Positions 4,886 through 62,039 of a stretch of DNA of 64,000 bases are shown one piece after another (the stretch's first letter is position 1; each line of letters begins with the position of its first letter). The DNA is from Salsipaludibacter albus (GTDB lineage: Bacteria > Actinomycetota > Nitriliruptoria > Nitriliruptorales > Nitriliruptoraceae): assembly GCF_019798055.1 (NCBI RefSeq), contig NZ_JAHOPH010000003.1:62001-126000 (forward strand), given 5' to 3'. A program made the translations under genes and the position numbers. The notes beneath the pieces were generated by a model, which saw only the letters and a list, made by a program, of their open reading frames with translations, did no database searches and had not been told where the DNA came from.

Positions 4886-6079
4886 ATGACCAGTTTCGAA
4901 GCCGACAGGGAAGACGTCGTTCCGATCGATGCCCTGGATGACGCCGCGTCGAGGCTGCACGGCAGCGGCGACACGGGGGCGCAGCTGCGGACGGATCCCC
5001 CTCCGGCGCCGCGAGTCGCGTGCAGCGTCCTCACCGGCGCCGCCACGACCGGTGAGCCGACCGAGGCGACCGATCCGCCGCCGGCGGCCTCCGCCCTGCC
5101 ACCCCCGTCAAGCGCGCAGCCCGTGGCGCCGTTGACCGCGGGCGACATCAGCGAGGACCGGCTCCTGGATGACCGGACCTCCGGCCCCGACTCGGGGTGG
5201 CGCCGGGCGGTGCACTGGCTCACCGGCGGGCTCGTCTCGCCGCCGCCGTCCAAGGCGGAGCTGGCCGAACGGGCCGAGATCGCCACGGTGAAGACGCCGG
5301 TGCGGGGCAGCCGGGTGATCGCGGCGGTGTCGACCAAGGGTGGGGTCGGCAAGACCACCACCACGGTCAACCTCGGCCACACCTTCGCGGCCCACCGCGG
5401 CGACCGCGTCGTCGCGCTGGACGGCAACCCCGACGCCGGCTCACTCGGCTACCGCATCCGCAACGAAACCCCTGCCACCGCCGACGACCTGCTCCGCCAG
5501 CTGGATGACGTGTCGCGGTATGCCGACATACGGGCGTTCACCTCCCAGGCCGCATCACGGCTCGAGGTCGTCGCCGCACCGGACGACCCGCGGGCCTCCA
5601 CAGCGCTGGGCGAAGCGGACTACCGGCGGCTGCTGGGCCTGTTGGAGGCGCACTACCAGCTGATCCTGGTGGACTGCGGCACCGGGATCCTCGACGACGC
5701 CACCCGCGGCATCGTCGACCACGCGGACCAACTCGTCGTCGTCACCGCCCCATCGGTCGACGCGGCCCGGGCCACGTCGTTCCTGTTGGACTGGCTCGAA
5801 ACCCACGGCCACGCCGACCTCGTCGCCGACGCCGTCGCCGTGATCAACGCCGCCCCGTCGGGCCGCAACAGCCTGGTCGACCTTGACGAGGTCGAAGCCC
5901 ACTTCGCCGCCCGGTGCCGCACCGTCGTGCGGATCCCGTGGGACCGCCACCTCGCTGCCGGCGCAACCACCGGCCTCGACCTGCTCCACGACACCACCAC
6001 GGCCGCCTACCGGCGTCTGGCGGCCGCCGTTGCTGAAGGGTTCACCCCCACCCCCCGAAAAGGAGAACACCCATGGTGA
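4886..6079 (+). CDS. ParA/MinD-type ATPase heading the transfer operon
   Basis: A 397-residue P-loop ATPase of the ParA/MinD superfamily. The first 140 residues are a Pro/Ala-rich, acidic, probably disordered extension. The ATPase domain starts at about 143 and shows the deviant Walker A KGGVGKTTT (151-159), an LDGNPDAGSLG switch-like region and LILVDCGTG at the Walker B position. Such proteins position plasmids or transfer machinery. No ParB partner is seen next door, which favours a role in conjugation or localisation over classical partition. Start ATG at 4886 follows GGAGGA at ideal spacing; the open frame upstream has no such signal. Its 3' end overlaps the next gene by 7 bp, indicating translational coupling. 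Confidence 0.85.
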   Translation: MTSFEADREDVVPIDALDDAASRLHGSGDTGAQLRTDPPPAPRVACSVLTGAATTGEPTEATDPPPAASALPPPSSAQPVAPLTAGDISEDRLLDDRTSGPDSGWRRAVHWLTGGLVSPPPSKAELAERAEIATVKTPVRGSRVIAAVSTKGGVGKTTTTVNLGHTFAAHRGDRVVALDGNPDAGSLGYRIRNETPATADDLLRQLDDVSRYADIRAFTSQAASRLEVVAAPDDPRASTALGEADYRRLLGLLEAHYQLILVDCGTGILDDATRGIVDHADQLVVVTAPSVDAARATSFLLDWLETHGHADLVADAVAVINAAPSGRNSLVDLDEVEAHFAARCRTVVRIPWDRHLAAGATTGLDLLHDTTTAAYRRLAAAVAEGFTPTPRKGEHPW

Positions 6080-8817: not shown

Positions 8818-10313
8818 GTGCGGTCGAGCCACGCCGATACGAGTTCGGATCGGCTGCCGAGGACGACACGTTGATCGCCGGGCTGAGGGCCGGCCAGGTC
8901 GCCGTCATCGTCGTCGCCCTTCTGCTCGCCGTCATGACGATCCGTCGGGCCACCAACACTGCCGGGCTGGGCGTGGCGCTGGCGATCGTCGGGTCGGCGG
9001 CGGTTGCGGCGTTCTGGCACATCGGCGGCCGCACCGTCGAGCAGTGGATCCCGATCGGCGCCCGCTGGCTCGCCCGGCTCGTCACCGGCAAGACCCGCCA
9101 CCTGTCGACGTTGCCGCTGTTGGGCGAGACCGATGACGGCAAACCCAACCTGCCACCCGACACCCTCACCGGCGTCGAGATCCTCTCTGCCCCGATCAGC
9201 GGGCAGTCCGGCCGGACGGTGGGGGTGGTGTGTGACCGCAAGACGGGCGTGTACGCGGCGGTGTTGGCGGTGCGGGGGCGCAGCTTCCAGTTGGCCGACA
9301 CTCCCGAGAAGCAACGCCGCCTGGCCGGCTGGGGCGCGGTGCTTGCAGGGTTGGCGCGGGCGTCGTCACCGATCCACCGGCTGCAGTGGGTCGAACGCAC
9401 CGTCCCCGACGACGGCGACGCGATGGGCCGCTACCTCGCCCGCACCGTCGCCGTCGACACCGGCCACCCCTCCCTCGCGTCGTACCTCGAGCTGGTCGAC
9501 CAAGGTGGCCCCGCCGCCCCCCAGCACGAGACCTTCCTGGTCGTGTCCATCTCCACCCTCAAGGCCCGCCGGCAGGTCAAGCAGGCCGGCGGCGGCGACT
9601 CCGGCGCCGTCGCCGTCCTGCTCCGGGAAGTGTCCGCACTGCGACGCCGGCTGCCGTCAGCCGAGGTCCTCGTCGACGGGCTCCTGCCACCCCGCATGGT
9701 CGCTGCCGCGATGCGGACCGCGTTCGACCCGCACGCCCGCATCGGCATGGCCCGCCGCGCCGCGGCAGCTGACGACGAGGCAGGGACGGATCCGGCGAAC
9801 GCCTGGCCGCTGGCGACCGAGACGGCATGGGGGTCGTATCGGTCGGGGCCGGTGGTGCATGCGACCTACTGGGTGGCGCACTGGCCCCGCACCGCCGTCG
9901 GCGCCGACTTCCTCGCCCCCCTCCTGCTCGGCACCGGCGGGATGCGCACCATCGCGTTGACCATGGAACCGGTCTCGCCGCTCAAGGCGCACCGGCAGGT
10001 CGAACAGCAGGTCGTCAAGACCATGGCCGACGAAGAACTCCGCGCCAAGGCTGGGTTCACGTTCACCGCCCGCCGCCGCCGCGCCCAGGAAGCCGTGTCC
10101 CGACGCGAACAGGAACTGGCGGACGGACATGCCGACTACCGCGTCGCCGGCTACGTCACCGTCACCGCCCAAGACGATGGCGAGCTCGAGGGGGCGTGTG
10201 GGGAGCTGGAGCAGGCCGCTCAGCAGTCCCACCTCGAGGTCCGCCGGCTGTACGGGCAGCAGGACGTCGCGTTCACCTGGACCCTCCCGCTCGCACGAGG
10301 GCTGGGATCGTGA
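8814..10313 (+). CDS. PrgI/SCO6880-family transfer protein
   Basis: 499 residues. Two adjacent membrane helices (about 28-45 and 50-68) near the N-terminus follow a short YEFGSAAEDDTLIAGL segment, the PrgI-like part. A large soluble region follows without nucleotide-binding motifs. Actinobacterial SCO6880 proteins have this organisation and always sit before the VirB4-like ATPase gene. The soluble region is thought to correspond to the N-terminal half of classical VirB4. Start ATG at 8814 overlaps the TrbL-like stop, and its stop overlaps the GTG of the ATPase gene. It probably forms an inner-membrane assembly platform with that ATPase. Confidence 0.8.
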   Translation: MSAVEPRRYEFGSAAEDDTLIAGLRAGQVAVIVVALLLAVMTIRRATNTAGLGVALAIVGSAAVAAFWHIGGRTVEQWIPIGARWLARLVTGKTRHLSTLPLLGETDDGKPNLPPDTLTGVEILSAPISGQSGRTVGVVCDRKTGVYAAVLAVRGRSFQLADTPEKQRRLAGWGAVLAGLARASSPIHRLQWVERTVPDDGDAMGRYLARTVAVDTGHPSLASYLELVDQGGPAAPQHETFLVVSISTLKARRQVKQAGGGDSGAVAVLLREVSALRRRLPSAEVLVDGLLPPRMVAAAMRTAFDPHARIGMARRAAAADDEAGTDPANAWPLATETAWGSYRSGPVVHATYWVAHWPRTAVGADFLAPLLLGTGGMRTIALTMEPVSPLKAHRQVEQQVVKTMADEELRAKAGFTFTARRRRAQEAVSRREQELADGHADYRVAGYVTVTAQDDGELEGACGELEQAAQQSHLEVRRLYGQQDVAFTWTLPLARGLGS

Positions 10314-11569
10314 GGGCCGGGGCGGGGGCGCATCGGGTGTCGACGGCGCATCTGCAGGCGGCGTATCCGTTCGTGTCCGAAGGCGGCCTCGGCGGCGAGG
10401 GCGTCTACATCGGCCGCGAAGTCCTCGGTGGGGCGTTCTGCTACGACCCCTGGGTGCTATACCGACGCGGGGTGTTGACGAATCCGAACATGCTGGTCGC
10501 CGGCCAAGTCGGCCGCGGCAAGTCGTCGTTCGTCAAGACCTACCTGTGGCGCCAACAGGTCTTCGGCCGCCGCGCCTGGATCATCGACCCCAAAGGCGAA
10601 TACGGCCCCCTCGCTGCGGCCTGCGGAATCGATCCGATCCGCATCGGGCCAGGCTTGCCCGTCCGCCTGAACCCGCTCGCACCCACTGCCGAGACCGTCG
10701 ACCGCGCCGCCGTCGACCGCGCCGCCGTCGACCGCCGGCGGATCTCGCTGCTCACGTCGCTCGCCGCCTCCTCGCTCGGGCGCACACTTCAGCCCGAGGA
10801 ACAGACCGCGGTCGAGCTCGCGGTTACCACCGCAGCCGGCACACACGGCGACGAGCTGGTGTTGCCGCAGGTTGTGGATGCGTTGTTGTGGCCCGACGAC
10901 GACACCGCCGCCCAGGTCGCCTCCGACGCCGACGCGTTTGCCCAGGCCGGCCGTCAGGTCGCCCTCGAGCTGCGGCGGCTGTGTCAGGGCGACCTGGCCG
11001 GGATGTTCGACGGCCCCACCACGGCCGGGATCGACCTCGACGCCCCCGTGGTGGTGTTGGACCTGTCGGCGTTGTATGGGTCGGACGCGCTCGGGCTGTT
11101 GATGCTGTGCGCGACCGCATGGCTGCAAGCCTCCCTCCAGGCACACGATCACGAGGACCGGCTGATCTTGGTGATCGACGAGGCCTGGGCGATCCTGCGC
11201 CACCTCGAGATCGCCCGCTGGCTGCAAGCCTCCTGGAAACTGTCGCGGCAGTATGGGGTGGCAAACATCGCCGTCGTCCACCGCCTGTCCGACCTCACCG
11301 CCGCCGGCGCGCACGGCTCTGAACAGGTCGCCCTCGCCCAAGGCCTGCTCGCCGACTCCGAGACCCGCGTCGTCTACGGCCAATCCCCGGCCGAAACCGA
11401 CCGCGCTACCGATCTGCTCGGCCTGACCGACGTCGAGGCCGACATCCTGTCCGAACTGGGCCGCGGCGTCGGCCTGTGGCGGGTCGGCGCCCGCTCCTTC
11501 CTCGTCGAACACGTCCTCGGGCACACCACCGAGCGGGTGATCGTCGACACCGACGCCAGAATGGGTTGA
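10310..11569 (+). CDS. VirB4-like transfer ATPase
   Basis: A 419-residue P-loop ATPase with Walker A GQVGRGKSS (65-73) and Walker B LILVIDEAW (285-293), plus the IIDPKGEYGPLA segment typical of VirB4/HerA-type conjugation ATPases. It is about half the length of VirB4 of Gram-negative systems. The missing N-terminal half is probably supplied by the preceding SCO6880-family protein, whose stop overlaps this GTG start (GTGA). An exact 15-bp tandem duplication at about 10699-10733 gives AVDRAAVDRAAVDRR at residues 129-143, in a loop away from the catalytic motifs. It would energise channel assembly or substrate transfer at the cytoplasmic face. Confidence 0.85.
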   Translation: MRAGAGAHRVSTAHLQAAYPFVSEGGLGGEGVYIGREVLGGAFCYDPWVLYRRGVLTNPNMLVAGQVGRGKSSFVKTYLWRQQVFGRRAWIIDPKGEYGPLAAACGIDPIRIGPGLPVRLNPLAPTAETVDRAAVDRAAVDRRRISLLTSLAASSLGRTLQPEEQTAVELAVTTAAGTHGDELVLPQVVDALLWPDDDTAAQVASDADAFAQAGRQVALELRRLCQGDLAGMFDGPTTAGIDLDAPVVVLDLSALYGSDALGLLMLCATAWLQASLQAHDHEDRLILVIDEAWAILRHLEIARWLQASWKLSRQYGVANIAVVHRLSDLTAAGAHGSEQVALAQGLLADSETRVVYGQSPAETDRATDLLGLTDVEADILSELGRGVGLWRVGARSFLVEHVLGHTTERVIVDTDARMG

Positions 11570-11572
11570 CGG

Positions 11573-13234
11573 ATGGCCACTTCGACCGCGCCCACGTCCC
11601 GGCCGCCGAAGCCCGGGCGGATGTCCCCGCTCGAACTGGTCGTTCTCTCGACCCTTGGTGTAGTGGTCGGCGCCACCGCACTCGTGTGGACCACCGCGCA
11701 AGTGTCTGCGAAGGTCTGGTTGGGGGAGTCGCCGCAACTGGGGCTTGTCGACACCGTCCCCGTCCTGCTCGCTCTGGTCGACAGTCCCGGTGATCCGGCC
11801 GCGGCGTTCCCATCTGAAACCGCCGTACTCGTTCCCGGACCTGTTCCGTTCTGGACCACCCTCGCACTGCTGCTCCTCGTCCCACTGGCGGTGGCGATCG
11901 TGTTCCTTCAGTGGCGCATCCGCCGCCGACCCCCCGAAGTCGACACGTCGGCCCGGTGGGCCACCACCAAGGACCTCAAGCCACTCATCGTCAAGAGGCC
12001 CACCCCGGGCAGGCTCACCCTCGGCACCGCCCACGGCAGGTTGTTGGCGGCCGAGCCGGGCCACTCCCTGATCGTCATGGGACCCACCCAGTCCGGCAAG
12101 ACCTCCGGCCTGGCCATTCCTGCCATCCTCGAATGGGACGGCCCCGTCCTCGCGACCTCGGTCAAGACTGACCTGCTCGACGACACGATCACCACTCGCC
12201 TCGACCGCGGCGATGTGTGGATCTACGACCCCACGGACACGGTCGCCGACTTCCCATCTGCTACGTGGTCCGCTCTGGCCGAATCGACAACCTGGCAGGG
12301 CGCGCTGCGAACCGCGACCTGGCTCACCGACGCCGCGCGCGACGGCGGCTTCCACGATGCCGACTTCTGGTACGCCAACGCCGCCAAACTCCTCGCTCCC
12401 ATGTTGTACGCGGCAGCCACCTCCGGCCGCACCATGACCGACGTCGTCCGGTGGGTCGACGTGCAGGAACAGCCCGAGGTCGACCTTGAACTCGAGGTCG
12501 CCGGGAACCCCGACGCCATCGCCGCGTTCGCCGCCTCAACCGGCCGCGAGGACCGTGCCCGCTCGTCCGTCTACACCACCGCAGAAACCATCCTCCGAGC
12601 CTTCGCCGACCCCGCCGTCGCACGCTCCTCGACGACCAGCGAGATCGACCCGGCCCGGCTTCTCGACGGCGGCAGCCACACCCTGTACGTGTCCGCACCC
12701 ATCCACGAACAGGCCCGGCTCCGACCGCTGTTCACCGCCCTCATCCAGTCCGTGCTCACCGCGGCCTACGACCGCGCCGCCGGTCGTAGTCGGCTCGACC
12801 CGCCCCTGCTGGTCGTGCTCGACGAAGCCGCCAACATCGCCCCCCTTCCCGACCTCGCCCAACTCGCCTCGACCGCCGCCGGACTGGGCATCCAGCTGGT
12901 GACGGTGTGGCAGGACCGCGCCCAGATCGCCCACCGCTACGGCGCTTCAGCCGCCACCGTGGTCAACAACCACCGCGCCAAGCTCGTCCTCGGCGGCGTG
13001 GCAGACACCGCCACCACCGGCGACGTCGCCCAACTGGTCGGTGAGACCGACGTGGCCCGACACTCCACGAGCACCGATGCCGACGGCCGAGTAACAGCCA
13101 CTGAGGCGACACAGACACAGCTGCTTGCGTCGGCCTCGATGATCCGCACCATGCGACCCTTCGAGGGCCTGCTGGTGTACGGAAGCTTGCCGCCCGCCCG
13201 CCTGCGACTGCGGCCCTGGTTCGAGGGCCGATGA
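11573..13234 (+). CDS. VirD4/TraG-type coupling protein
   Basis: A 553-residue type IV coupling protein. Two transmembrane helices (about 20-42 and 93-113) precede the hexameric ATPase domain, with Walker A GPTQSGKTS (170-178) and Walker B LLVVLDEAANI near residue 405. A TraG/TraD-like region containing LGIQLVTVWQDRAQI follows. It would recruit the relaxase-DNA complex and pump DNA into the channel. Start ATG lies 3 bp after the ATPase stop, so it closes the transfer operon. Downstream the element switches to cargo (a restriction enzyme). Confidence 0.9.
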   Translation: MATSTAPTSRPPKPGRMSPLELVVLSTLGVVVGATALVWTTAQVSAKVWLGESPQLGLVDTVPVLLALVDSPGDPAAAFPSETAVLVPGPVPFWTTLALLLLVPLAVAIVFLQWRIRRRPPEVDTSARWATTKDLKPLIVKRPTPGRLTLGTAHGRLLAAEPGHSLIVMGPTQSGKTSGLAIPAILEWDGPVLATSVKTDLLDDTITTRLDRGDVWIYDPTDTVADFPSATWSALAESTTWQGALRTATWLTDAARDGGFHDADFWYANAAKLLAPMLYAAATSGRTMTDVVRWVDVQEQPEVDLELEVAGNPDAIAAFAASTGREDRARSSVYTTAETILRAFADPAVARSSTTSEIDPARLLDGGSHTLYVSAPIHEQARLRPLFTALIQSVLTAAYDRAAGRSRLDPPLLVVLDEAANIAPLPDLAQLASTAAGLGIQLVTVWQDRAQIAHRYGASAATVVNNHRAKLVLGGVADTATTGDVAQLVGETDVARHSTSTDADGRVTATEATQTQLLASASMIRTMRPFEGLLVYGSLPPARLRLRPWFEGR

Positions 13235-13432
13235 GCACTCGGCTCGCGTCTGGGCCGACTCGGAGAAGGGCTTGCCGACACCTGGCGGCTTCTTCCCTGA
13301 TGACGTCACGCCACTGCTCAGCGAGCAGTGACGGGTGCACCAGGGACTCGCCTCACCGTCGACCATCGGTCGCCTCGGGCTTCTATCGGACTCTACGCTT
13401 CCGGCCTAAGACGACCGTGGGAAGATCTAGAC

Positions 13433-16400
13433 TTGGGTGTCTCTGCAGTTCTTGACCAGATCCGGGCGACGGCCACCAGCGAGTACGACAAAGGCGCTGC
13501 CTTCGAGCGGATGATGGCCTCGGCCTTTCGACTTGATCGGACATACCGAGAGCGCTTCGAGAAGGTCTGGTTGTGGGCGGACTGGCCCGACCGCCCGGGG
13601 TTAGATCTGGGCATCGATCTCGTGGCGAGGACCAGTGACGGTGGACTGATCGCGATCCAGTGCAAGTTCTACGCAGCAGAGCACCAAATCACCAAGTCTG
13701 ACATCGACAGCTTCTTCACCGAGAGCGGTCGACAACACCTCATAGACGGTGTCCTGCGCGGTTTCGACGAGCGCATCATCGTCGCGACTAGCGACCAGTG
13801 GTCGACCAACGCTGAAGGGTCACTCGACAACCAGACCATCCCTGTTATCCGTATCGGGGTTGACGAACTCGACCAGATGACCATCGACTGGGATGCGTTC
13901 GATCCTGGCAGCCCGTCGGATCTCGTTCCAACAGCGCGCCACGAGTTGCGGCCGCACCAGACAACGGCCGTCGACAAAGTCCGGTCGGGCTTCTCGTCTT
14001 CGGACCGCGGGCAGCTCGTGATGGCTTGCGGCACTGGAAAGACGTTCACGAGCCTGCGAATTGCCGAAGAACATGCCGGTAAGGGGGCGACGGTGCTATT
14101 TCTGGCTCCGTCGATCGCGCTGATATCCCAGACTCTGAAGGAGTGGACGGCCCAGACGAAGACCCCGATCCGTCCCTTCGCGATCTGCTCGGACACCACG
14201 GCCGGCAGACCGGTGGAGGGCGAGCTCGGCACGCCCTATGACCTGGCGGTTCCACCGACCACAGACGCGGCCGCACTTCAACAAGCCACCGCGCACACAC
14301 CTCGAGACGACGCCATGACGGTGATCTTCTCGACGTACCAATCCATCGCCGTCGCCGCAGACCTGCAAGCTGCGACCGGCCTCACCTTCGACCTGGTGGT
14401 GTGCGACGAGGCTCACCGCACTGCCGGTACCACCGAGGCTGGCGAGGACGCGACCGCGTTCGTCACAGTGCATGACAACGAGCTGATCCCAGCAGCCAAG
14501 CGGTTGTACATGACCGCCACGCCGAGGGTCTACAAGCCGGCAGCCAAGACCGACGCGACCGAACACGACGTGATCGTGGCGTCCATGGACGACCCGGAGG
14601 TGTTCGGTCCGGAGTTCCACCGGCTCGGGTTCGGCCAAGCCGTCTCGCTCGGGCTGCTAGCTGACTACCGAGTCCTCATCATGACGGTCGGTGAGGACGC
14701 GATCAGCGAGTCCTTCCAAGACCTGCTCTCGACCGACGGGAATCTGAATCTGCCGGACGTCGCCAAGATCGTGGGCTGCCTGGCCGGGCTCGGGAAGCGT
14801 CGTGGCGTCGGCGCAGGGGCGTTCAGCGGCCTAGACGAGCCGATGCGCCGTGCCGTGGCGTTCTGGTCCACCATCGCAGAGTCGCAGCAGTTCGCGGAAC
14901 AGTTCGACCTGGTCGCCGAACGCTACGTGGAGATGCAGGAGGAGGAGGGCCGCGAAGTCATCGACCTGCGCGTGCCAACGCGGCACGTCGACGGCACCAC
15001 CAATATCCGTGCGCGACGCTCCGACATCCGATGGCTCAAAGGCGACCCGGCCGACGACGAGTGCCGCGTGCTCACCAACGCCAAGTGCCTGACCGAGGGC
15101 GTCGACGTCCCGGCGCTGGACGCCGTCATGTTCCTCAAACCCAAACGATCCACGGTCGACATCGTCCAGGCCGTCGGCCGCGTGATGCGCAAACCGCCGG
15201 GCAAGCAGATGGGCTACATCATCCTGCCCGTTGTAGTCCCGACCGGCCAGTCTGCCGAGACCGTGCTGGAGTCCAACACCGACTACGACGTCGTCTGGTC
15301 GGTGCTCCAAGCCCTCCGCAGCCACGACGAGCGGTTCAACAGCTACATCAACCGCATCCAGTACCTGTCGGACTCCCCCTCGGAAGACCCGGACAACCCG
15401 ATCCAGATCGTTGACGTCGACGCCGACCTCGGCACGGACGATGACAGCGCGAGCCAGCTCACCTTCGGTGGATTCTCGTGGCAGGACTGGACAGCAGCGA
15501 TTTACACCCGAATCGTCAAGAAGGTCGGCACCCGCGGCTACTGGGAGGACTGGGCAGCCGACGTCGCCGACATCGCACGTCGACACCACCAACGAATCCT
15601 CGACATCCTCAACCAACAGCCCGAGGCCAACGAAGCCTTCGCAGGATTCCTGGCCGGACTGCGCGTCAACCTCAACGGCGACATCTCACAGGACGACGCC
15701 ATCGCCATGCTGTCGCAGCACCTCATTACCGCGCCCATCTTCGAAGCACTGTTCGACTCCAGCAGCTTCGCTCTAACCAACCCGGTCTCGCAGGCCATGG
15801 CTGAGATCACGTCGGTCCTCGACCAGTACAGCCTCGACACCGAGACCGCGTCGCTGGATCGCTTCTACGACTCCGTGCGGCAGCGCGTCGAAGGGATCCC
15901 GCCTCAAGACGGCGCGGCCCGCCAACGCATCATCAAGGATCTCTACGGACGCTTCTTCGCCAACGCCTTCCCCGAGACCGCCAAGTCACTGGGCATCGTC
16001 TACACGCCAATTGAGATCGTCGACTTCATCCTCCGAGCCGCCGAAGCCGTCCTCGCCGAACACTTCGACGGCGCATCCATGTCCGACGAGGGCGTTCATG
16101 TTCTCGACCCGTTCACCGGAACCGGGACGTTCCTCGCCCGTCTGCTCCGATCAGGCATCATTCAGCCCAGCGACCTGGCCCGAAAGTTTGCGAACGAGCT
16201 CCACGCCAACGAAATCCTGCTGCTGGCCTACTACATCGCCGCCGTCAACATCGAGACGACCTACCAGCAGATCGTGGACTCCGAGGAGTACACACCGTTC
16301 CCCGGCGTCGTCCTGACCGACACCTTCGCCATGGCCGAAGGCAACGTCGCCCTCACGCTCGACGTCTTCCCGATCAACAGCGACCGCGCACAGAAGCAAC

Positions 16401-18274
16401 GCGAACTCGACATCCGCGTCATCGTCGGCAACCCCCCTTACTCGGCGACCGGCAACCTCGCCTACCCGGCCCTAGACAAACTGATCGCCGACACCTACGT
16501 CGCCAAGTCGGCCGGCACTCGGTTCGGCTCGGTCTACGACGCCTACATCCGAGCCATCAGATGGGCCTCACAGCGCGTGCTCGACTCGACTCTGGGGGGC
16601 GTGGTGGCCTTCGTCACCAACGGCGGCTTCATCGACTCCAACGTCATGGACGGGCTGCGTCTGACCCTTGCCGACGAGTTCCACCACGTCTACGTCTACA
16701 ACCTGCGCGGCAACCAACGCACTGCTGGCGAGCTATCACGAAAGGAGGGTGGAAAGGTCTTCGGCAGCGGCAGTCGCAACACCGTGGCCATCACCCTCCT
16801 GGTCTCGCTTCCGGGAGACCCTCCACCGGACGGCGCCCAGATCCACTACATCGACATCGGCGACTACCTAAGCAGAACAGACAAGCTTCGCATCTTGGAC
16901 AACAATCTCCGGCCTCAGGGCGCTGCCCAGGCAAAGCTGGCCGACCTCCCGTGGACACCCATCGAACCCAACGCCTATGGCGACTGGATCAACCAGCGGT
17001 CAGCGAAATTCGAGGACTTAGTCCCGCTTCACGACGACGATGAAGGTTCGATATTCGCGATCAGGTCACACGGCCTGAAGTCGAATCGAGACGCCTGGAA
17101 CTACAACTCCTCCGAGCAGGGAGTCAGGACGAACGTCGAGCGCATGCTCGCTCACTACAACGACCAGGTCACGGCATTCGCTCAAGCGCACCCAAACCTC
17201 ACCGGAACGCAGTCGAAGCGCGCGAAGATCGCGAAAGCGACGGTCGATCGAGACCCCACCAAGTTCAGTTGGGACCGAGCTGACTACAAGCGCCTCGTGG
17301 ACGGCCAGACCTACAGCATGGACGACGCCGTGCTGCAGCCGGCCATGTACAGACCGTTCGTTTCAAGACACGCAAACTCAGGTCGGCTGCTGAACAACAC
17401 CGTCTACAAGCAGCCGCGGATCTTCCCGTCCGCAGAGACGGCCAATCTAGCGATCGGGGTGCTGGAACCCGGGGGGAGCGCTCCCTTTACGGCCCTCATG
17501 GTCGATCGGCTCCCCGACGACAAGCTGGCTGGCGCTGGCAACGCCATGCAGTTCCTGCCCCGCTGGATCTATCCCGACAGGGATGTCGCCTCGACCGACC
17601 AGACCGAACCGGGCAGCCGTCGAGACGGGGTGACCAACCACGCCCACGAGCTGTTCCAAGTAGCCGATCCCGACATCACCAAGGACGACATCTTCTTCAT
17701 CGTGTACGCCATCCTCCACCACCCGCAATACCGCGACACCTTCGCCAACGACGTCGCTAGATCACTGGCACGAATCCCCGTCCCCGACAAGCCCACCACA
17801 CTTCGCGCTCTTGGCGAGGCGGGACGCCAGCTCGCGTCGCTGCATGTCAGTTACGACGACGTGCAACCCTGGCCCAAGCTCACCATCGACCGAAGAGACG
17901 ACTTCGATCAAGCCAACCGCGACCACCTGCGCATCACGAAGATGCGCTATGCCAAGAAGCCCAACCCGAGCGACCCAGGCGGCCGAAAGATCGATGACAA
18001 GTCGGTGCTCGTCTACAACCCGTGGATCACCATCCGCGGCATCCCCGAGCGCGCCCATCATTACCGGTTGGGGTCACGCTCCGCGCTGGACTGGGTCGTT
18101 GATCAGCAGCGAGTCAGGACATACACGAAGTCCGGCATCACAAACGACCCGAACGACTCGGCTGACGAGCACGACGACCCTAGCTATCTGCTGAACCTGA
18201 TCGGTCGAGTCGTCACCGTGTCAATGCAGACACTCGACGTCATCGAGGGTCTCCCAGACCTGGAGATGGAGTAG
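13433..18274 (+). CDS. Type ISP single-polypeptide restriction-modification enzyme
   Basis: One chain of about 1,610 residues carrying all restriction-modification functions in Type ISP (LlaGI/LlaBIII-like) order. First comes an Mrr-like PD-(D/E)xK nuclease (GLDLGIDLVA...AIQCKFY, around 13595-13670). Then a superfamily 2 helicase (Walker A ACGTGKT at about 14025, DEAH at about 14406, VQAVGRVMRKP at about 15170). Then a gamma-type adenine methyltransferase (DPFTGTGTF at about 16108, NPPYSA at about 16431), and last a C-terminal target-recognition region. It should translocate on DNA, cut unmethylated sites and methylate one strand. I favour the TTG at 13433 (GGAAG eight bases upstream, and homologous N-termini start near LDQIRATATSEYDKG); a GTG at 13328 would add 35 unusual residues. 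Lower GC than the flanking transfer genes suggests separately acquired cargo. Confidence 0.9.
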   Translation: MGVSAVLDQIRATATSEYDKGAAFERMMASAFRLDRTYRERFEKVWLWADWPDRPGLDLGIDLVARTSDGGLIAIQCKFYAAEHQITKSDIDSFFTESGRQHLIDGVLRGFDERIIVATSDQWSTNAEGSLDNQTIPVIRIGVDELDQMTIDWDAFDPGSPSDLVPTARHELRPHQTTAVDKVRSGFSSSDRGQLVMACGTGKTFTSLRIAEEHAGKGATVLFLAPSIALISQTLKEWTAQTKTPIRPFAICSDTTAGRPVEGELGTPYDLAVPPTTDAAALQQATAHTPRDDAMTVIFSTYQSIAVAADLQAATGLTFDLVVCDEAHRTAGTTEAGEDATAFVTVHDNELIPAAKRLYMTATPRVYKPAAKTDATEHDVIVASMDDPEVFGPEFHRLGFGQAVSLGLLADYRVLIMTVGEDAISESFQDLLSTDGNLNLPDVAKIVGCLAGLGKRRGVGAGAFSGLDEPMRRAVAFWSTIAESQQFAEQFDLVAERYVEMQEEEGREVIDLRVPTRHVDGTTNIRARRSDIRWLKGDPADDECRVLTNAKCLTEGVDVPALDAVMFLKPKRSTVDIVQAVGRVMRKPPGKQMGYIILPVVVPTGQSAETVLESNTDYDVVWSVLQALRSHDERFNSYINRIQYLSDSPSEDPDNPIQIVDVDADLGTDDDSASQLTFGGFSWQDWTAAIYTRIVKKVGTRGYWEDWAADVADIARRHHQRILDILNQQPEANEAFAGFLAGLRVNLNGDISQDDAIAMLSQHLITAPIFEALFDSSSFALTNPVSQAMAEITSVLDQYSLDTETASLDRFYDSVRQRVEGIPPQDGAARQRIIKDLYGRFFANAFPETAKSLGIVYTPIEIVDFILRAAEAVLAEHFDGASMSDEGVHVLDPFTGTGTFLARLLRSGIIQPSDLARKFANELHANEILLLAYYIAAVNIETTYQQIVDSEEYTPFPGVVLTDTFAMAEGNVALTLDVFPINSDRAQKQRELDIRVIVGNPPYSATGNLAYPALDKLIADTYVAKSAGTRFGSVYDAYIRAIRWASQRVLDSTLGGVVAFVTNGGFIDSNVMDGLRLTLADEFHHVYVYNLRGNQRTAGELSRKEGGKVFGSGSRNTVAITLLVSLPGDPPPDGAQIHYIDIGDYLSRTDKLRILDNNLRPQGAAQAKLADLPWTPIEPNAYGDWINQRSAKFEDLVPLHDDDEGSIFAIRSHGLKSNRDAWNYNSSEQGVRTNVERMLAHYNDQVTAFAQAHPNLTGTQSKRAKIAKATVDRDPTKFSWDRADYKRLVDGQTYSMDDAVLQPAMYRPFVSRHANSGRLLNNTVYKQPRIFPSAETANLAIGVLEPGGSAPFTALMVDRLPDDKLAGAGNAMQFLPRWIYPDRDVASTDQTEPGSRRDGVTNHAHELFQVADPDITKDDIFFIVYAILHHPQYRDTFANDVARSLARIPVPDKPTTLRALGEAGRQLASLHVSYDDVQPWPKLTIDRRDDFDQANRDHLRITKMRYAKKPNPSDPGGRKIDDKSVLVYNPWITIRGIPERAHHYRLGSRSALDWVVDQQRVRTYTKSGITNDPNDSADEHDDPSYLLNLIGRVVTVSMQTLDVIEGLPDLEME

Positions 18275-21816: not shown

Positions 21817-24800
21817 TCAGGCTCGGCGACGGGCGGGGAGGTCGCGCACGGGTGTTGGGTCGTGGACGTCACGGTCCGGCTGACGGTGGGCGTCGGGGAG
21901 TTGCGACGCGATCGCGTCGTGGGCACGTCGTTGGGTCAGGTCGGATGGCCGGGGGCCGAGAGGGGTTCGTGGGTCGTCGATGCCCCAGGTGGTGCGGTAG
22001 TGCTCGATCGCGGTGACGAGGGCGGTCCACCCGTTGCGCTCGGCCGGCGTGTCCGGGCGCGGCCCAAATGTGCTGGTCAGGTGGTCGGAGAGTTCGTGGC
22101 CAGCAGCGACTGATCGGAGGTGGGCACGGCGGCCGAGCTCCTGGTCGACGTCCTCGAAGGCCTCCAAGAGGTCCGATAGCTCGTGTGAGGACTCCGGGTG
22201 GGCGAGTCCGCTTGCGACCTCTGCGAGGTGCCGCTCGGTCATCTCCAGTGCCGCCTGGACCCGCGCGGTCTCGTCGGGGTTGGGCCGGCGCCGCCAGCGG
22301 CTTGGCGGCTTGGCCTCGAGCGCGTCGAGCTGCTGGGCCAGTTCGTCCACTCGGGCCGTGAGCTCGTGGTGGCGGGCCTCGACTTGGTCGTGGTTCGGTG
22401 TCGGCTCGGTCCGGGCGGCTTGGAGTAGCCGAGTGCGCAGTTGGTCGTGCACGGCCTGCAGGTCGTGGTCGTCGCGGCCTGTGAAGTCCTGGCCGGTGTG
22501 GTCGAGCGCAAGGTGTTGGCCTTGGGAGCGACGTAGCCGGGCGGCCAACCTCCGGGCTGCGTCACCCGTAGCCCCGAGGACGGTGTCGTGGCCGGCTGGG
22601 TCCGGGATCGGGTCGGCGACGATGTAGAGGTGGTTTTGGTGGCGGCCGCGGGACAGGGCGACGTAGCCCCACTCGCGGTACATCGCGTCGGAGCCGAGGA
22701 TCCAGGTGGCGTCGGTGGTGAGGCCTTGGGCCTTGTGGCCGGTGATGGCGTAGGCGTGGTCGACGTGCCCGGCGTCGAGGTAGCTGGCCGGCAAATCGAC
22801 GGGCCGGTTGCCGACGTCGATTCGGATGGTCAGGGTGCGGGCCGCTTCGTCAACGCTCTCGACTTTCCCGCGGGTGCCGTTGACGACGTCGAGGCGGCGG
22901 TCGTTGCGCAGGCACACGATCCGGTCGCCGGCCTGAAACGTGCTGCCCCCGACGTCGAGCTCGGGGCCGGTGAGTTCGCCGTCGGCGGCCATCCGAGTCC
23001 GGGCGCGGGTGTTGAGGTCGTCGACGTCGGTCCGGCGCAGGGCGACCATGACGCCGTCGAGGTCGTGTTCGGTGCGGGCGTGCCACCAGTCGGACACGAG
23101 TTGTTCGCGGGCGGCGTCGACGGTCTCGCCGATGTGGATGCGGCCGGCGGCGTGGTAGGCGGACAGTCCGGTGGTGGGGTCGCCGTTGCGGAGGTGGTCG
23201 AGGGCGTCGCGTTCCCAGCCGGCGGACTGGCGGCGGTTGTCGGACAGCTCGATCACGTGCAGTCGGTTGGCGAGTCCGCGGAGGAGCCCGCCCGCGTCGA
23301 TCTCGGGCAGCTGGTAGGGATCGCCGACGAGGACGACCTTGGCGTTGGCCGTGGCGGCGGCGTCGAGGAGGCGGGCGAGCTTGCGGGTGCCGACCATCCC
23401 AGCCTCATCCACCACCAGGACACTGTTCGGTGCGAGCCCGCCGTGGTGGGGGTGTTCGACGTCGGCGAGGAGCCGGTCGATGGTGTAGCTGTCGATCCCG
23501 GCGCCGGTTTCGAGCTCGAGGGCGGCGCGGGCGGCCAGAGCGGTGCCGATGACGCGCCGTCCGGAGGCGTGCCAGGCGGCGCGGGCGGCGTCGAGGGCGT
23601 AGGTCTTGCCGGCGCCGGCCTTGCCGATCACGACCTCGATCCCGGCTCCGGATCCGGTGAGGCGGCGGACCATGGCGGCCTGTTCGCCGGCGATGGACGG
23701 TCGGTCGGCCAGCACCCGATCCACCGTTGCGTCGTCGACGATCGCGACGCCGGCGCTGATGCGGGTTGTGGACTGGTGGACGAGGCGTTGTTCGAGGGCG
23801 AGCAGGTCGGGGGTGGAGTAGCGGGTGTCGTCCGGCAGGGCCGCCACTGCGGTGCCGTCGGGTCGGCGGATCACGTCGCGCGACGACAGCAGCTGCACCG
23901 TGCCGTCGGGCTGGTCCAGCGCCACGACGCCGCCCGCCTCGTCGTCCAGCAGCACGTCGGCAAGGCGCTCGACACGGCCGATGGGGGAGCCGTCGGGAAG
24001 CTGTTGGCACCAGGCCCGCAGGACGTCTCGCCGGGTGAACGTCGAGGCACGAGCCGTCAACCCGTCCGGTCCGAGCAGCTCGTCTGCGACGCCGGCCAGT
24101 CGGTCGCCGGCGACCGGCTCGAGGACCCGGCTGTGGACGATGGCGGAGAGCTCGGCGGGGTCGAACCCGAGCTGAGTGGCCTGGTCCGCCCAGCGGTCGC
24201 GGAGGGTGGCCTGGTCGGGGAGGTCGGCCTTCGATTCGCGGGTCTCGAGTGTGGCGATCTGGGCGGCGCGGGCAGAGGTCTCTCCGCGTCGTTCCATGAG
24301 GTCGAGGATCTCGGCGCGGCGCTGGGAGAACGCCTCGATCACCTCGCGGGGCACGCCGGTCAGATCCGCGGTGCCGTTGGTGACTGGGGTCCAGGCGACG
24401 CCGAGGGTGCGGGTGAGGTGGTCGCGGAGGTGGGCTTGGTAGAGGTAGCCGGCGGTCTTGGCATGGGCATACAGACGTCGTGAATCGACGGTGCGCCACT
24501 GGCCGTCGTCGGCGGCCTGGGCGAGGTTGGCGACCAGGACGTGGGTGTGCAGCAGCGGGTCCCCGGCCCGGGAGGTGCGGTGCATGAACGCCGCAGCAAC
24601 TGCCCCCGTGGTCGGGACCCGTTCGGCGCCGCCGCGGCCGCGGCGGGTCCAGACGGCTTCGCGTTCGAGGTAGCCCACCGCGGCTTCGATTGCGTCGTCG
24701 TGGGCTTGGCGGACCTGGTCGGCGACGTCGTCGTCGCCGAGCCCATACAACAGGGACACCGACTTCGGAGCACGGAAGGTCAGGTCGAACCCGGGCACGG

Positions 24801-25032
24801 TCCGCTGCCGCTGCGCCAACAGCGGCGCATCATCAGCCGGGTCTCGGCCACCCAGCACGGTCCGCAGTTGCTCCGGCGTCACACGTCCTGACAGGCCGAG
24901 GGTGTCGGCGCCGCCGCCGAGCCAGCGGCCGGGGAGCTCGCCGTGGCCGAAGTAGTACTCCTCCACGCCGTCGGCGACCGTGGCGAGGTAGTAGTCCTCG
25001 CCGCCGGGGGCCATGCGACCGATGTTCAGCAT
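21817..25032 (-). CDS. MobF-family relaxase-helicase (TraA/TrwC type)
   Basis: 1,071 residues. The relaxase domain (1-300) has N-terminal tyrosines (DYYLATV, then EEYYFGH) and the three-histidine metal site in MHRTSRAGDPLLHTHVLVAN (about 151, 162, 164). A RecD-like superfamily 1 helicase follows, with Walker A GKAGAGKT (about 470-477) and DEAG (about 542-545), and later AYAITGHKAQGLT and EWGYVALSRGR. The tail (about 830-1071) is helical and charged. It would nick oriT, attach covalently to the strand and unwind DNA for transfer. The ATG at 25032 overlaps the upstream TGA (TGATG); a GTG at 25035 is the alternative. No oriT is obvious from inspection. Confidence 0.92.
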   Translation of the reverse strand: MLNIGRMAPGGEDYYLATVADGVEEYYFGHGELPGRWLGGGADTLGLSGRVTPEQLRTVLGGRDPADDAPLLAQRQRTVPGFDLTFRAPKSVSLLYGLGDDDVADQVRQAHDDAIEAAVGYLEREAVWTRRGRGGAERVPTTGAVAAAFMHRTSRAGDPLLHTHVLVANLAQAADDGQWRTVDSRRLYAHAKTAGYLYQAHLRDHLTRTLGVAWTPVTNGTADLTGVPREVIEAFSQRRAEILDLMERRGETSARAAQIATLETRESKADLPDQATLRDRWADQATQLGFDPAELSAIVHSRVLEPVAGDRLAGVADELLGPDGLTARASTFTRRDVLRAWCQQLPDGSPIGRVERLADVLLDDEAGGVVALDQPDGTVQLLSSRDVIRRPDGTAVAALPDDTRYSTPDLLALEQRLVHQSTTRISAGVAIVDDATVDRVLADRPSIAGEQAAMVRRLTGSGAGIEVVIGKAGAGKTYALDAARAAWHASGRRVIGTALAARAALELETGAGIDSYTIDRLLADVEHPHHGGLAPNSVLVVDEAGMVGTRKLARLLDAAATANAKVVLVGDPYQLPEIDAGGLLRGLANRLHVIELSDNRRQSAGWERDALDHLRNGDPTTGLSAYHAAGRIHIGETVDAAREQLVSDWWHARTEHDLDGVMVALRRTDVDDLNTRARTRMAADGELTGPELDVGGSTFQAGDRIVCLRNDRRLDVVNGTRGKVESVDEAARTLTIRIDVGNRPVDLPASYLDAGHVDHAYAITGHKAQGLTTDATWILGSDAMYREWGYVALSRGRHQNHLYIVADPIPDPAGHDTVLGATGDAARRLAARLRRSQGQHLALDHTGQDFTGRDDHDLQAVHDQLRTRLLQAARTEPTPNHDQVEARHHELTARVDELAQQLDALEAKPPSRWRRRPNPDETARVQAALEMTERHLAEVASGLAHPESSHELSDLLEAFEDVDQELGRRAHLRSVAAGHELSDHLTSTFGPRPDTPAERNGWTALVTAIEHYRTTWGIDDPRTPLGPRPSDLTQRRAHDAIASQLPDAHRQPDRDVHDPTPVRDLPARRRA

Positions 25033-25823
25033 CACCGATCACCCCCGCCGGAGGCGTCACCGGAGCCGTCACGGCGGGGGTGTGCATCCCCCGGTGCCAG
25101 TCTGTGTGGTTGCTTCTGGAGGTCGGACGGAACGTCCGTGTAGTGGTCCTCGTAGTTGGGGGTCTGCGTGGTCACTGGGGTGACCTCGCTGTGGAGCTCC
25201 TCGAGGTGTTGGAGCTCTGGTGGGTCGTCGTCGAGGACGACGATCTCGGTGTTGATGTGGGTGGTGCATCGTTGGCCTGGCTCCTCGACGTGTTGGCTGC
25301 AGATGCATCGGGGTGTCCACACTTGCGTGGCGGTCGGGTCGGTCAGCAGGTCGAGGTGACGTCCGGGCTGGCAGTACACGCACTTGCACGCGACGTCGTC
25401 GACCAGGCGTGTCCGGTAGGCGTTGGGGCAGCCGACGGCCCGGCGGCGAGCCGCGTCGGCTTCGCGACGCTCACGGGCCCGGCGGTTGGCCTCGGCCAGC
25501 GACACCAGGGTGCGTTCGTGCTCGGGGTCGATGTAGCTGCTGAGCAGGTTCGGCTTGCCGGCCGGGGCGGTCCCGGTGTTCGCGCCGGCGAACGCCACCC
25601 GCTGTTGCGCGACCAGCTCGCCGTGCGTGCCCGGTGTCCCCGCGACCGCGGAGGCCTCGACCACGACGCCCAGCCGTGCGGTGGCGGCCGCGACCCGCTC
25701 GGCGACCCGGCGGGCGCGCCGGTGTGCGGTCTCGACCCGGGTGCCGCCGGCGACGGTGTAGGTGACCGCGACGGTGTAGGTCGCGGCGTTGCGGAACTCA
25801 TCGGTCTCGTGGGGCGCGGTCAT
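25032..25823 (-). CDS. Cys-rich accessory protein of the mobilisation operon
   Basis: 263 residues, function unknown. The N-terminal part has repeated strands (TYTVAVTYTVAGG) and an Arg/Ala-rich helix at about 110-130. The centre holds a cysteine cluster that could bind zinc: CKCVYC near 146-151, then CICSQH and a further Cys and His (about 173-190). The tail is acidic, then Gly/Asp-rich. It overlaps the gene before it by ATGA and the relaxase gene by TGATG, so it is made together with both. A DNA-binding or relaxosome accessory role is plausible from position and the possible zinc site, but I recognise no family. Confidence 0.65.
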   Translation of the reverse strand: MTAPHETDEFRNAATYTVAVTYTVAGGTRVETAHRRARRVAERVAAATARLGVVVEASAVAGTPGTHGELVAQQRVAFAGANTGTAPAGKPNLLSSYIDPEHERTLVSLAEANRRARERREADAARRRAVGCPNAYRTRLVDDVACKCVYCQPGRHLDLLTDPTATQVWTPRCICSQHVEEPGQRCTTHINTEIVVLDDDPPELQHLEELHSEVTPVTTQTPNYEDHYTDVPSDLQKQPHRLAPGDAHPRRDGSGDASGGGDR

Positions 25824-26254
25824 GGCCGACCCCCCGAGGTCGAGGCCGTGGCTGGGTCGTGGCCGGGGGATGCCAGGACGACATCGGCCAGGTCGACGAG
25901 TTCGCCGATCAGGTCGCGGGCGAGCTCACGCACCGTGGCGCGGATGTCGCCGCCCCCGTTGACCGCGGCCTCGTGGATCGCGCCGGCCAGCTCGAACAGC
26001 CGCCGCAGCTGCGGCGCGTACTCGGCGCCGGGCGTGTCCCCGTCGGGGTCCACCAGGTGGAGCCGTCCAGACCGCTCGGGGTAGGTGCGCCGGTAGGTCT
26101 CGATCGCACCCCACACGAGCTGGTAGGCGACGTAGTGGTCGAAGGGCACCCGCAGCTCGTCGGCGACGTAGGCGTCGGCGTCTCCCTGCGGGATGCCCTC
26201 GGCGATCGCGAGCTGTTCGATCGCTGCGAGGGTGGGTTCGTGGTCGTGGTTCAT
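25820..26254 (-). CDS. Small acidic helical protein between initiator and relaxase genes
   Basis: 144 residues, acidic and predominantly helical (repeated segments such as LRRLFELAGAIHEAAV and VRELARDLIGELVDLADVVLAS). There are no membrane segments or catalytic motifs. Start ATG at 26254 has GGAG six bases upstream and overlaps the stop of the initiator-like gene (ATGA). Its stop overlaps the start of the Cys-rich protein gene in the same way. Function unknown; it may adapt or regulate the replication or mobilisation complex. Confidence 0.6.
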   Translation of the reverse strand: MNHDHEPTLAAIEQLAIAEGIPQGDADAYVADELRVPFDHYVAYQLVWGAIETYRRTYPERSGRLHLVDPDGDTPGAEYAPQLRRLFELAGAIHEAAVNGGGDIRATVRELARDLIGELVDLADVVLASPGHDPATASTSGGRP

Positions 26255-27771
26255 CTCGGCTCCAAGCTGCGCGAGGCGGTCGTCGTGCGTTCGGTGGTCG
26301 GGGTGTCGAGGTCTGGCAGGAGACGCGCCACACGGGCCCTCAGCGGCGCCGCGGGGCCGGTCTGGGTAGGTGGCTCGGGCAGGGACTCCTCGACGCCAGG
26401 GGGACGGCTGGCCGGTCCGGAGGACCCGCGAGAGCCGGGCGCTGGCGTGGGGTCGCCTGCCAGGAGGCGGGGGAGGAGGTCGGCGAGCGGCGCACCCGGA
26501 TCCGCACGGTGGGCGGCGACGGCCCAGCCGACGATCTGGGCGGTGGCCACCGGGACCGACCGGCGTCCGACCACGCCGGCCAGCGGTGACGTGTGGACCT
26601 CGAGGGCTCGGGCCAGCTGGTCGTTGTCGAGCGCGCCGGACACGGCGGCTTCCCATCGCGTGCTGCGATCGAGCTGGCGATCCTCCCGCTGACGAGCGAG
26701 GCGCCGAAGGGCCCCGTCCCGGGCCCGCAAGCGCCGGGCCTTCCGCTCACTGCGCAGCTGCTCGGCGGCCTGGGAGACGTCCCAGCCGTCACGGATCGCG
26801 GTGACCACCCACCCCGCTGGACTGCGGGCCTCGGTGACCTCGACGGCGTCCAGCACGTCGACGACCTGGGCGACCGGATGCGCGGCGATCAGCGACCGCG
26901 CCTGGCCGTCCGCGACGCCCACGCTGACGAGCCGCTCGATCAACTCAGCGTGTTCGCCCGGGTCTCCCTCGAGCTCGTGTGACGAGTCCAGGTCGGTCGG
27001 GTCGTCCGCGACCGCGGAGGAGAAGTCCTGCTCAGGCTCACCGAGACGGCTGGTCGGCGGCGGCTCGTCGTTCGATTCGCGCGCGGTCTGTTGTTGTTCT
27101 TCTTCTCCAACAACAACTTCTCTGTTATGTCGCAAATCACGGTGTCGCGTGGATTGCGACACGGTGGACGGCACCGTGTCGCAAGAATTGCGACACGGTC
27201 TGGAAACGTCGTCTGTGGACGATTCAGCCCGATCTGTGGATTCGGCCGCAGAGTTATCCACAGTTGCGGGATTGTGGGTTGACGAGACGTCATGGGAGTT
27301 GTCCACAGCCGCGCGATTGGGGGTTGACGCCGCAGTGGCGCCCGACGGTGGGGTGTGGGTGAACCGCTCCAGGCACGCTGACGGGTCCAGCACGTAGCGC
27401 GACGCGGCGTACATCCCCGAGCCCGCCTCGCGGTGCTCCTCGTGCAGCACGAACCCGTGGTCGCGCAGCCGCCCGAGGTGCTTGGTGACGGTGTTGTTCG
27501 CCAGACCGAGGTTGTCGGCCAGGCGGCGGACGTTGGTCTCGGCGACCAGCCTTCCTGCGTCGTCGAGCCGGGCGTCCAGGGCGATGTCTTCCAGGATCGC
27601 CCACGCGATCGGGCCGACGGCACGCTTGACGGCGCGCGACGAGGGGAAGACCTTGGCGAAGGGTTCGGCGCGGCCGATGATGCGGCCGTCGGACAGCACC
27701 CGGCCGAACTCCTGGCCGAACGCGACGATGTCGCGTGCCTGCAGGCCCCGGTCAGCTCCGTCGGCGGTCAT
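26251..27771 (-). CDS. Winged-helix replication initiator-like protein with the origin inside its gene
   Basis: 506 residues. The N-terminal domain (about 40-130) contains a winged helix (NVRRLADNLGLANNTVTKHL, then a wing ending MYAASRYVLD) preceded by a conserved-looking helical region. Residues about 150-265 are low-complexity, and the DNA encoding them carries iterons and DnaA boxes. The C-terminal part (270-506) is helical, with a basic stretch SERKARRLRARDGALRRLAR. The plan (DNA-binding N-terminus, origin in the middle of the gene) parallels the lambda O protein and many theta plasmid initiators. It opens the leftward operon that ends with the relaxase genes. A role as transcriptional regulator instead of initiator cannot be excluded. 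Confidence 0.65.
   Translation of the reverse strand: MTADGADRGLQARDIVAFGQEFGRVLSDGRIIGRAEPFAKVFPSSRAVKRAVGPIAWAILEDIALDARLDDAGRLVAETNVRRLADNLGLANNTVTKHLGRLRDHGFVLHEEHREAGSGMYAASRYVLDPSACLERFTHTPPSGATAASTPNRAAVDNSHDVSSTHNPATVDNSAAESTDRAESSTDDVSRPCRNSCDTVPSTVSQSTRHRDLRHNREVVVGEEEQQQTARESNDEPPPTSRLGEPEQDFSSAVADDPTDLDSSHELEGDPGEHAELIERLVSVGVADGQARSLIAAHPVAQVVDVLDAVEVTEARSPAGWVVTAIRDGWDVSQAAEQLRSERKARRLRARDGALRRLARQREDRQLDRSTRWEAAVSGALDNDQLARALEVHTSPLAGVVGRRSVPVATAQIVGWAVAAHRADPGAPLADLLPRLLAGDPTPAPGSRGSSGPASRPPGVEESLPEPPTQTGPAAPLRARVARLLPDLDTPTTERTTTASRSLEPR
27090..27307. other. Probable replication origin (oriV) nested in the initiator-like gene
   Basis: Within 220 bp: a 9-bp perfect inverted repeat GTTGTTGTT/AACAACAAC (27090-27098, 27109-27117) in an AT-richer patch; three copies of the 11-mer TTGCGACACGG (27154-27164 direct, 27174-27184 inverted, 27188-27198 direct), the last two forming a palindrome with a 3-bp centre; a partial copy TGTCGCAA (27129-27136); and DnaA boxes TTATCCACA (27254-27262) and TTGTCCACA (27299-27307), with two weaker inverted boxes at 27214-27222 and 27235-27243. 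The encoded peptide here is low-complexity, consistent with selection on DNA sequence. Confidence 0.65.
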
Positions 27772-28029
27772 GGCGCGACCGCGGCTCGAGCTCTCTCCGG
27801 AGGTCGGTCCCGACCCGGTGGCCAGGCCAGTCGAGGCAGGTCTCCGAAACGTCGATCGCCTGACTGGGGGTCAGACGATTCGGGCCGTTCTGGGTACACG
27901 AGAGGTACACGCGAGAGGCTGGATTCGGCATGCAGGCACCGGCGTCGCCTGACTTTCTGCGACGAGTTTTCCCTGCTCAGCGGCATGTTCCGACCCGGCC
28001 CACCGGGTGCCGCAACGGCCCTGTTCCGA
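27772..28029. other. Left arm of the attachment region and upstream region of the initiator operon
   Basis: No gene of its own is apparent. It must hold the promoter of the leftward replication-mobilisation operon, though no strong hexamers are evident. Two GGTACACG repeats lie at 27893-27900 and 27904-27911, exactly one helical turn apart. A leftward frame from the integrase remnant stays open across this stretch and ends overlapping the initiator ATG at 27771. Confidence 0.5.
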
Positions 28030-28071
28030 CTACGGATCAGGCGGCCGGGGGTTCGAATCCCTCCCAGCGCG
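28030..28071 (+). tRNA. 3' half of tRNA-Arg(ACG), attachment core; gene incomplete
   Basis: The sequence runs from a CTACGGA anticodon loop (anticodon ACG) through TCAGG, a variable loop, a T-arm GGGGG-TTCGAAT-CCCTC, and an acceptor strand CCAGCGC plus discriminator G; CCA is not encoded. The 5' half (D-arm and matching GCGCTGG acceptor strand) is absent upstream, where unrelated sequence begins close to the anticodon stem. Partial tRNA 3' ends of this kind are typical integration cores of tyrosine-integrase elements. It is not a functional tRNA gene as it stands. Confidence 0.8.
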
Positions 28072-28076
28072 CAACG

Positions 28077-28310: not shown

Positions 28311-28520
28311 CGGGGGCTCACGGTGGGCCCGGAGGACTCGTGCGACGTGCTGTGCTGCCTTGGCCTGCATGCCCGGGAGGACGTGGCTGTAGACGTCGAG
28401 CGTGAACGCGGTCGAGTGGTGACCGAGCCGCTCGGAGACGATCTTGGGGTTCACGCCTGCCTGCAGCCACAGGGTCGCCGTTGTGTGCCGGAGATCGTGG
28501 AGGCGACAGAGTCGACCGGG
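28311..28520 (-). pseudogene. C-terminal remnant of a tyrosine integrase
   Basis: Leftward frame encoding the catalytic end of a phage-type tyrosine recombinase: LHDLRHTTATLWLQAG (catalytic Arg-His), VSERLGHHS (second His) and LDVYSHVLPGM (the nucleophilic Tyr within VYSH). Everything upstream of CRLHDLRH is missing; the frame runs into unrelated sequence at about 28510-28525, next to the 3' end of a lacI pseudogene. The frame has no stop after the recombinase part and stays open through the tRNA core to 27768, where it meets the initiator start codon. Without its N-terminal two-thirds it cannot be an active integrase. Confidence 0.8.
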
Positions 28521-28560
28521 AAACCGGGGAGAGGCGGGGTGGTCTCCCGTTGCCGTGCCG

Positions 28561-61962: not shown

Positions 61963-62039
61963 CGGAGGGGTCGCCCGGCCGGGGGCCGCCTACGGTGGCG
62001 CTCGGTCCCAACACGGCACGGACGACAGGACGACACGGC

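Follow-up and report, generated by a model that had tools for sequence, protein, structure and literature searches.

The 64,000-nucleotide stretch analysed here (hereafter the window; positions 62,001 to 126,000 of contig NZ_JAHOPH010000003.1) comes from Salsipaludibacter albus, a little-studied actinobacterium, and carries a rep-like gene for a protein of 506 amino acids (26251-27771, minus strand). We consider it very probable that the product of this gene is a replication initiator of the lambda O/RepA_N working type and that the DNA coding for the protein's own linker is its origin (oriV). The gene adjoins attR, one end of a complete-looking 40.4-kb integrative and conjugative element (ICE) at a tRNA-Arg gene, and the best reading of the element is a lambda O/RepA_N-like theta replicon of an actinobacterial ICE of the type IV secretion system (T4SS) type. 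An earlier note on this sequence had placed a replication origin within its own initiator gene. That proposal is now strongly supported: a site array followed by an AT-rich tract is found in 13 of 13 linkers, the site pattern is unique to this gene family in 66 genomes, site classes agree with recognition-helix classes, and the protein is related to initiators. The analysis is computational throughout; it establishes the anatomy of the locus, its conservation and gene-family specificity, the excess over protein constraint, the class concordance, the relatedness to initiators and the boundaries of the ICE.

The open reading frame (ORF) encodes a winged helix, a disordered linker and a helical C-terminal domain. 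In the AlphaFold model of the protein, the confident residues are about 45-137 (the winged-helix DNA-binding domain, 27361-27639, minus strand, with the recognition helix ANNTVTKH) and 271-437 (the helical C-terminal domain, 26461-26961, minus strand, common to RPA-type plasmid initiators). For most residues of the linker (138-268) the predicted local distance difference test score (pLDDT) is below 40, i.e. the linker is disordered. The segment that codes for it and holds the proposed origin (26968-27360, minus strand) varies in length from 108 to 414 bp among relatives. The iterons, palindrome, partial iteron copy, DnaA boxes and 9-bp inverted repeat in an AT-rich patch that the earlier note had listed are all present. 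The 11-bp iteron TTGCGACACGG occurs exactly three times in the window, at 27154-27164 (plus strand), 27174-27184 (minus) and 27188-27198 (plus), as had been claimed; however, the repeat unit is better described as a lambda-like 21-bp dyad, GTGTCGCAA-N3-TTGCGACAC, plus a half-site, than as an 11-bp direct iteron. The first dyad (27176-27196) reads GTGTCGCAA-TTC-TTGCGACAC and lies within a 25-bp perfect palindrome (27174-27198); the second (27142-27162), GTGTCGCAA-TCC-ACGCGACAC, is imperfect. The partial iteron copy (27128-27135, minus strand) is an extra half-site beside the AT-rich tract, found at the same position in several relatives. The tract itself (27090-27130), a proposed unwinding element, is where the AT content of the gene peaks (65% in a 40-mer, versus 29%) and contains the 9-bp inverted repeat GTTGTTGTT/AACAACAAC at 27090-27117.

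These features were compared with expectation by keeping the protein sequence fixed and shuffling synonymous codons. The window linker contains 17 inverted 8-mer pairs, against a mean of 1.2 and a maximum of 9 in the shuffled sequences (0 of 1000 as high). When inverted 7-mers are counted, 0 of 2000 shuffles reach the number in the window linker, and 4 of 2000 reach that of the origin region of lambda O; in neither gene is there such an excess in the domains on either side. The AT content and the stem of the AT-rich tract likewise lie beyond synonymous expectation. The linker palindromes exceed both chance and what the protein requires.

Relatives were sought in 66 genomes (Nitriliruptoria by our reading; the named records of metagenome-assembled genomes (MAGs) are Euzebyales, Egibacteraceae and Nitriliruptorales), and 13 genes with a readable linker, that of the window included, were compared; several relatives come from fragmented MAGs, and truncations or frameshifts affect some copies. 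The winged-helix domain of the relatives is ~60-77% identical. The half-site array and then the AT-rich tract follow in the same order in all 13 linkers, with dyads of a constant 17-nt half-site offset in 12 of them and matching half-sites only in the remaining one, L021. In 13 of 13 genes no other 40-mer is as rich in AT as this tract, which lies just past the last half-site, and in 11 it exceeds the AT content dictated by the protein. An excess of inverted 8-mers over synonymous shuffles is clear in most relatives, not in L021, L022, L057 and L060. The pattern GTGTCSSAANNNTTSSGACAC, with at most one mismatch, has nine distinct sites in the 66 genomes, all inside the rep-like gene family, and the reversed pattern used as a control gives none. 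A relaxed dyad pattern was also run against IMG/VR; the four contigs obtained were judged to be chance matches (unrelated proteins or no long ORF). One single-contig genome has two rep-like genes (L020 and L022) with intact frames, iterons and downstream ORFs; the genes around them look chromosomal, and no relaxase is encoded within ~8 kb.

The inverted repeat of the AT-rich tract could be read differently, as the relaxase hairpin of an origin of transfer (oriT), with the winged-helix protein acting on the dyads as an accessory factor of the relaxosome. Two ORFs downstream there is a gene for a MobF relaxase, the stem exceeds synonymous expectation in 9 of the 13 genes, and one short winged-helix protein (L068) is encoded beside a TrwC-type gene. 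That short, relaxase-linked form, however, has no linker array and no dyads, and the hairpin is not strictly kept: in L055, L056, L057 and L021 it is not above chance, and the estimate for the oriT was lowered because of these four genes. Moreover, L021 is accompanied by T4SS coupling, VirB4-like and Replic_Relax-like proteins without MobF in the stretch examined, yet keeps the half-sites and the AT-rich tract, and the C-terminal domain is one that plasmid initiators have in common. We therefore regard an oriT as unlikely.

As to the protein, its sequence resembles phage and plasmid initiators and may be O-like. A search of PHROGs with the window protein returned O-like and replication initiation families at the top, and both kinds were matched by 8-9 of the 10 alignment members; the O-like match (E 2e-4 for the window protein, 1.5e-5 for the best relative) is weak and falls mainly in the winged-helix region. 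HTH_36 (PF13730) was matched by 9 of 10 members at E ≤0.1 (best 1e-5), the window protein itself not being listed. In other Actinomycetota the C-terminal domain is found again in plasmid initiators of the RPA/Rep_3 type; it is the only part in common, the N-terminal RPA domain (PF10134) being found neither in the window protein nor among the families listed for its relatives. RepA_N (PF06970) gave no match to the window protein at E 0.1 and is absent from the 25/35 families listed for the relatives. A scan of IMG/VR with the protein alignment yielded no relative. Several loci among L080-L098 encode RPA-type initiators with the same C-terminal domain, some carrying a terminal DnaA_N domain (PF11638). 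In a distant actinobacterium, an HTH_36 protein with a different C-terminal part (L093:1775-1860) has a linker that holds two perfect GTGTACCAA-N3-TTGGTACAC dyads; the matches of its winged helix are proteins of phages and plasmids, several of them annotated as replication initiation proteins or DnaD-like loaders.

Sequence searches of Pfam, NCBIfam and PDB with the window protein returned generic winged helices alone (winged helix-turn-helix (wHTH)/ArsR-like and MarR-like), and Foldseek found no match in PDB below E 0.01. Such generic matches, in sequence and in fold, would also suit an autoregulator for which the dyads are the protein's own operator, and palindromes would suit a dimeric repressor. 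The dyads nevertheless sit about 0.57-0.63 kb within the coding region, the pattern search of the 66 genomes gave no other match and hence none near the promoter of the gene, and repeated sites with an adjoining AT-rich tract in a disordered linker are unlike the anatomy of an operator; we hold autoregulation to be very unlikely. Less likely still, to the point of being scarcely credible, is a reading of the array as a centromere-like site for partition to which the winged-helix protein, as a TubR/ParR-like factor, binds. TubR is among the weak fold matches and the element has a ParA-like gene (4712-6079); this gene, however, is 20 kb away, no TubZ turned up in the genes inspected, the winged helices matched in fold are generic and the C-terminal domain is common to initiators.

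Half-sites fall into four classes, and the class of the recognition helix agrees with that of the half-site in 13 of 13 genes. GTGTCGC (the window and L021) occurs with ANNT or SRNT, GTGTCCC (L018, L026, L055, L056 and L063) with SKNT or SKNA, GTGTCCG (L020, L060, L061 and L022, which is mixed) with NKDT, and GTGTACC (L057 and L059) with SKTT. Helix and dyads are about 300-370 bp apart within one ORF. Four genomes have two or more scorable copies, and each of the four contains at least two half-site classes; five of six within-genome pairs differ in class, which is suggestive only, ~77% being expected by chance. The site and the helix that would read it appear to have changed together among the relatives, which suggests that elements of this kind replicate apart from the chromosome. 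It is possible, if somewhat short of probable, that helix and dyads, being in one ORF, switch class together (TCGC, TCCC, TCCG, TACC), so that recombination or drift would create new compatible replicon types in one step and several ICEs could coexist in a genome.

The linker also contains two perfect DnaA boxes, TTATCCACA (27254-27262) and TTGTCCACA (27299-27307), both on the plus strand, and a weak one with one mismatch, TGTGGACGA (27214-27222, minus strand). The sequence TTRTCCACA occurs 3 times in the 64-kb window (0.19 expected) and 24 times in the 4.25-Mb genome. Three copies lie in the two linkers of the host genome (about 660 bp; window 27254 and 27299, and C11:48004), where ~0.004 would be expected from its density, and four copies, identical in sequence to the linker boxes, flank the host dnaA (C12:33067-35019). 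The second of these linkers belongs to another initiator gene copy in the same genome (G000 contig C11:47568-48863; L018:9569-10864), with half-site GTGTCCC, helix SKNT and its own DnaA box. Two DnaA boxes, one perfect and the other nearly so, stand ~0.25-0.4 kb upstream of the gene in L021. The use of host DnaA claimed by the earlier note is thus plausible for the window element but not general: DnaA participation is not a family trait, because boxes are found only in the two linkers of the host genome. By the same note's own refutation criterion, homologues with a conserved protein and no conserved sites, the comparison speaks for the claim as to the iterons, which are kept among the relatives, and against it as to the DnaA boxes, which are not.

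Several observations weigh against reading the linker as an origin. L021 has no full dyad, L022 has one mixed dyad and L060 a single one, and L021 and L060 show no inverted 8-mers. None of the other 11 linkers has a DnaA box. Taken alone, the window protein resembles initiators weakly (best PHROG E 2e-4), and tblastn with it gave no match in plasmid and phage collections, which thus contain no close relative. The half-site classes largely follow descent: on a tree built without the helix they need four changes (shuffled mean 7.0; 6 of 2000 shuffles as few), so only a few events underlie their concordance, and some nodes of the tree are weak. Co-variation of helix and half-site was accordingly rejected as a statistical proof.

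The element that carries the gene, delimited by att repeats and an integrase, is an ICE of about 40.4 kb. Its attR (28028-28073, plus strand) repeats the 3' half of tRNA-Arg(ACG) over 46 bp, and the att core has two copies in the genome. The other copy, attL, is left of the window (contig C23:49700-49745), completes an intact tRNA-Arg(ACG) gene (C23:49669-49744) and is adjoined by a full-length tyrosine integrase of 423 amino acids. In the window ARAGORN found no tRNA, the att site being the tRNA 3' half only, and Rfam gave no match. Besides att direct repeats at a tRNA gene and the integrase, the element has the other features that define a T4SS-type ICE: a relaxase, here a MobF (TrwC) relaxase-helicase (21817-25035, minus strand), a T4SS coupling protein (11573-13234, plus strand) and a VirB4-like ATPase (9827-11569, plus strand). 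An ORF without assigned function (25032-25823, minus strand) lies downstream of the rep-like gene, and this synteny holds in relatives. Since int at attL and rep at attR point in the same direction, circularisation sets rep directly downstream of int and attP; in L058 a single contig has int followed by a tRNA-like stretch and then rep, the arrangement that an attP or a tandem junction should show. A truncated rep-like gene directly behind a tRNA-like gene (L066:6650-6860) suggests imprecise deletion at an att site. Just right of attR, a C-terminal remnant of a tyrosine integrase (28349-28530) looks as if a second, degraded element abutted the ICE. A UvrD-like helicase with a DUF2290 neighbour, a large NACHT-like protein and a Type ISP restriction-modification enzyme (L113:8008-16873; window 13328-18274) may be defence cargo.

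Among known systems, ori-lambda, with four 18-bp inverted repeats and a 39-bp AT-rich region inside O (PMC6022878; NC_001416), is like the proposed window origin in its place within the initiator gene, in palindromic iterons, each bound by a dimer in lambda, and in the ~40-bp AT-rich tract downstream of them, in the same order relative to the gene; lambda O also passes the same kind of synonymous-shuffle test. Unlike lambda, the window family has 21-bp dyads, one to four in number, with DnaA boxes in two of the gene copies, and the window gene is on a conjugative element, ends in another type of C-terminal domain and has no adjacent P-like helicase loader (downstream are two ORFs of unknown function and the MobF relaxase, with no Pfam loader match). 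In pSK41 Rep the boxes lie centrally in rep and are bound by the winged-helix N-terminal domain (PMC5703833). The window gene fits this RepA_N plan in the position of its proposed origin and the disorder of its linker, and shares the winged-helix N-terminal domain, central boxes, a linker encoded by the proposed origin and a helical C-terminal domain; it differs in lacking a PF06970 match and in a C-terminal domain that recurs in RPA-type initiators. The gene would work like lambda O and RepA_N, yet it is assigned to neither type, since it does not match RepA_N and has no P-like gene beside it. The hybrid initiators of the pPR9 type have an HTH_36 N-terminal domain, matched here by 9 of 10 alignment members, and show a modular swap of that domain plus origin; the pPR9 mini-replicon was shown to replicate (PMC5703833). 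These are staphylococcal plasmids with a pSK41-type C-terminal domain, and the window protein has no close relative in the plasmid collection. RPA plasmid initiators of other Actinomycetota have the C-terminal helical domain in common; unlike the window protein, they have an RPA/Rep_3 N-terminal part in place of its winged helix, and some end in DnaA_N.

By analogy with ori-lambda and pSK41, a dimer of the winged-helix domain would bind each 21-bp dyad; the bound array, aided in Salsipaludibacter albus by DnaA at the two boxes, would open the AT-rich tract (27090-27130), and the C-terminal domain would bring in the helicase or primase of the host, so that the circle left by excision is copied by theta replication. 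From this anatomy we infer that the element replicates autonomously. Once the element is circular, int, attP, rep and relaxase would be read in one direction; rep may then be expressed by read-through, which could couple its transcription, and with it replication, to excision.

Actinobacterial T4SS-type ICEs likewise carry a tyrosine integrase, a VirB4-like ATPase, a coupling protein and a MobF relaxase; the window element differs in its proposed dedicated initiator and origin, which is of interest because a survey took such ICEs as generally not replicating (PMC3218068). One lineage of them thus gains a concrete proposed initiator and origin, clonable as a single 1.5-kb fragment. The four origin-specificity classes with their matching helices are a natural series for testing initiator-origin recognition and plasmid-like incompatibility. 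To our knowledge, no replicon is in use for Nitriliruptoria, and the initiator-origin fragment could seed shuttle vectors for this group.
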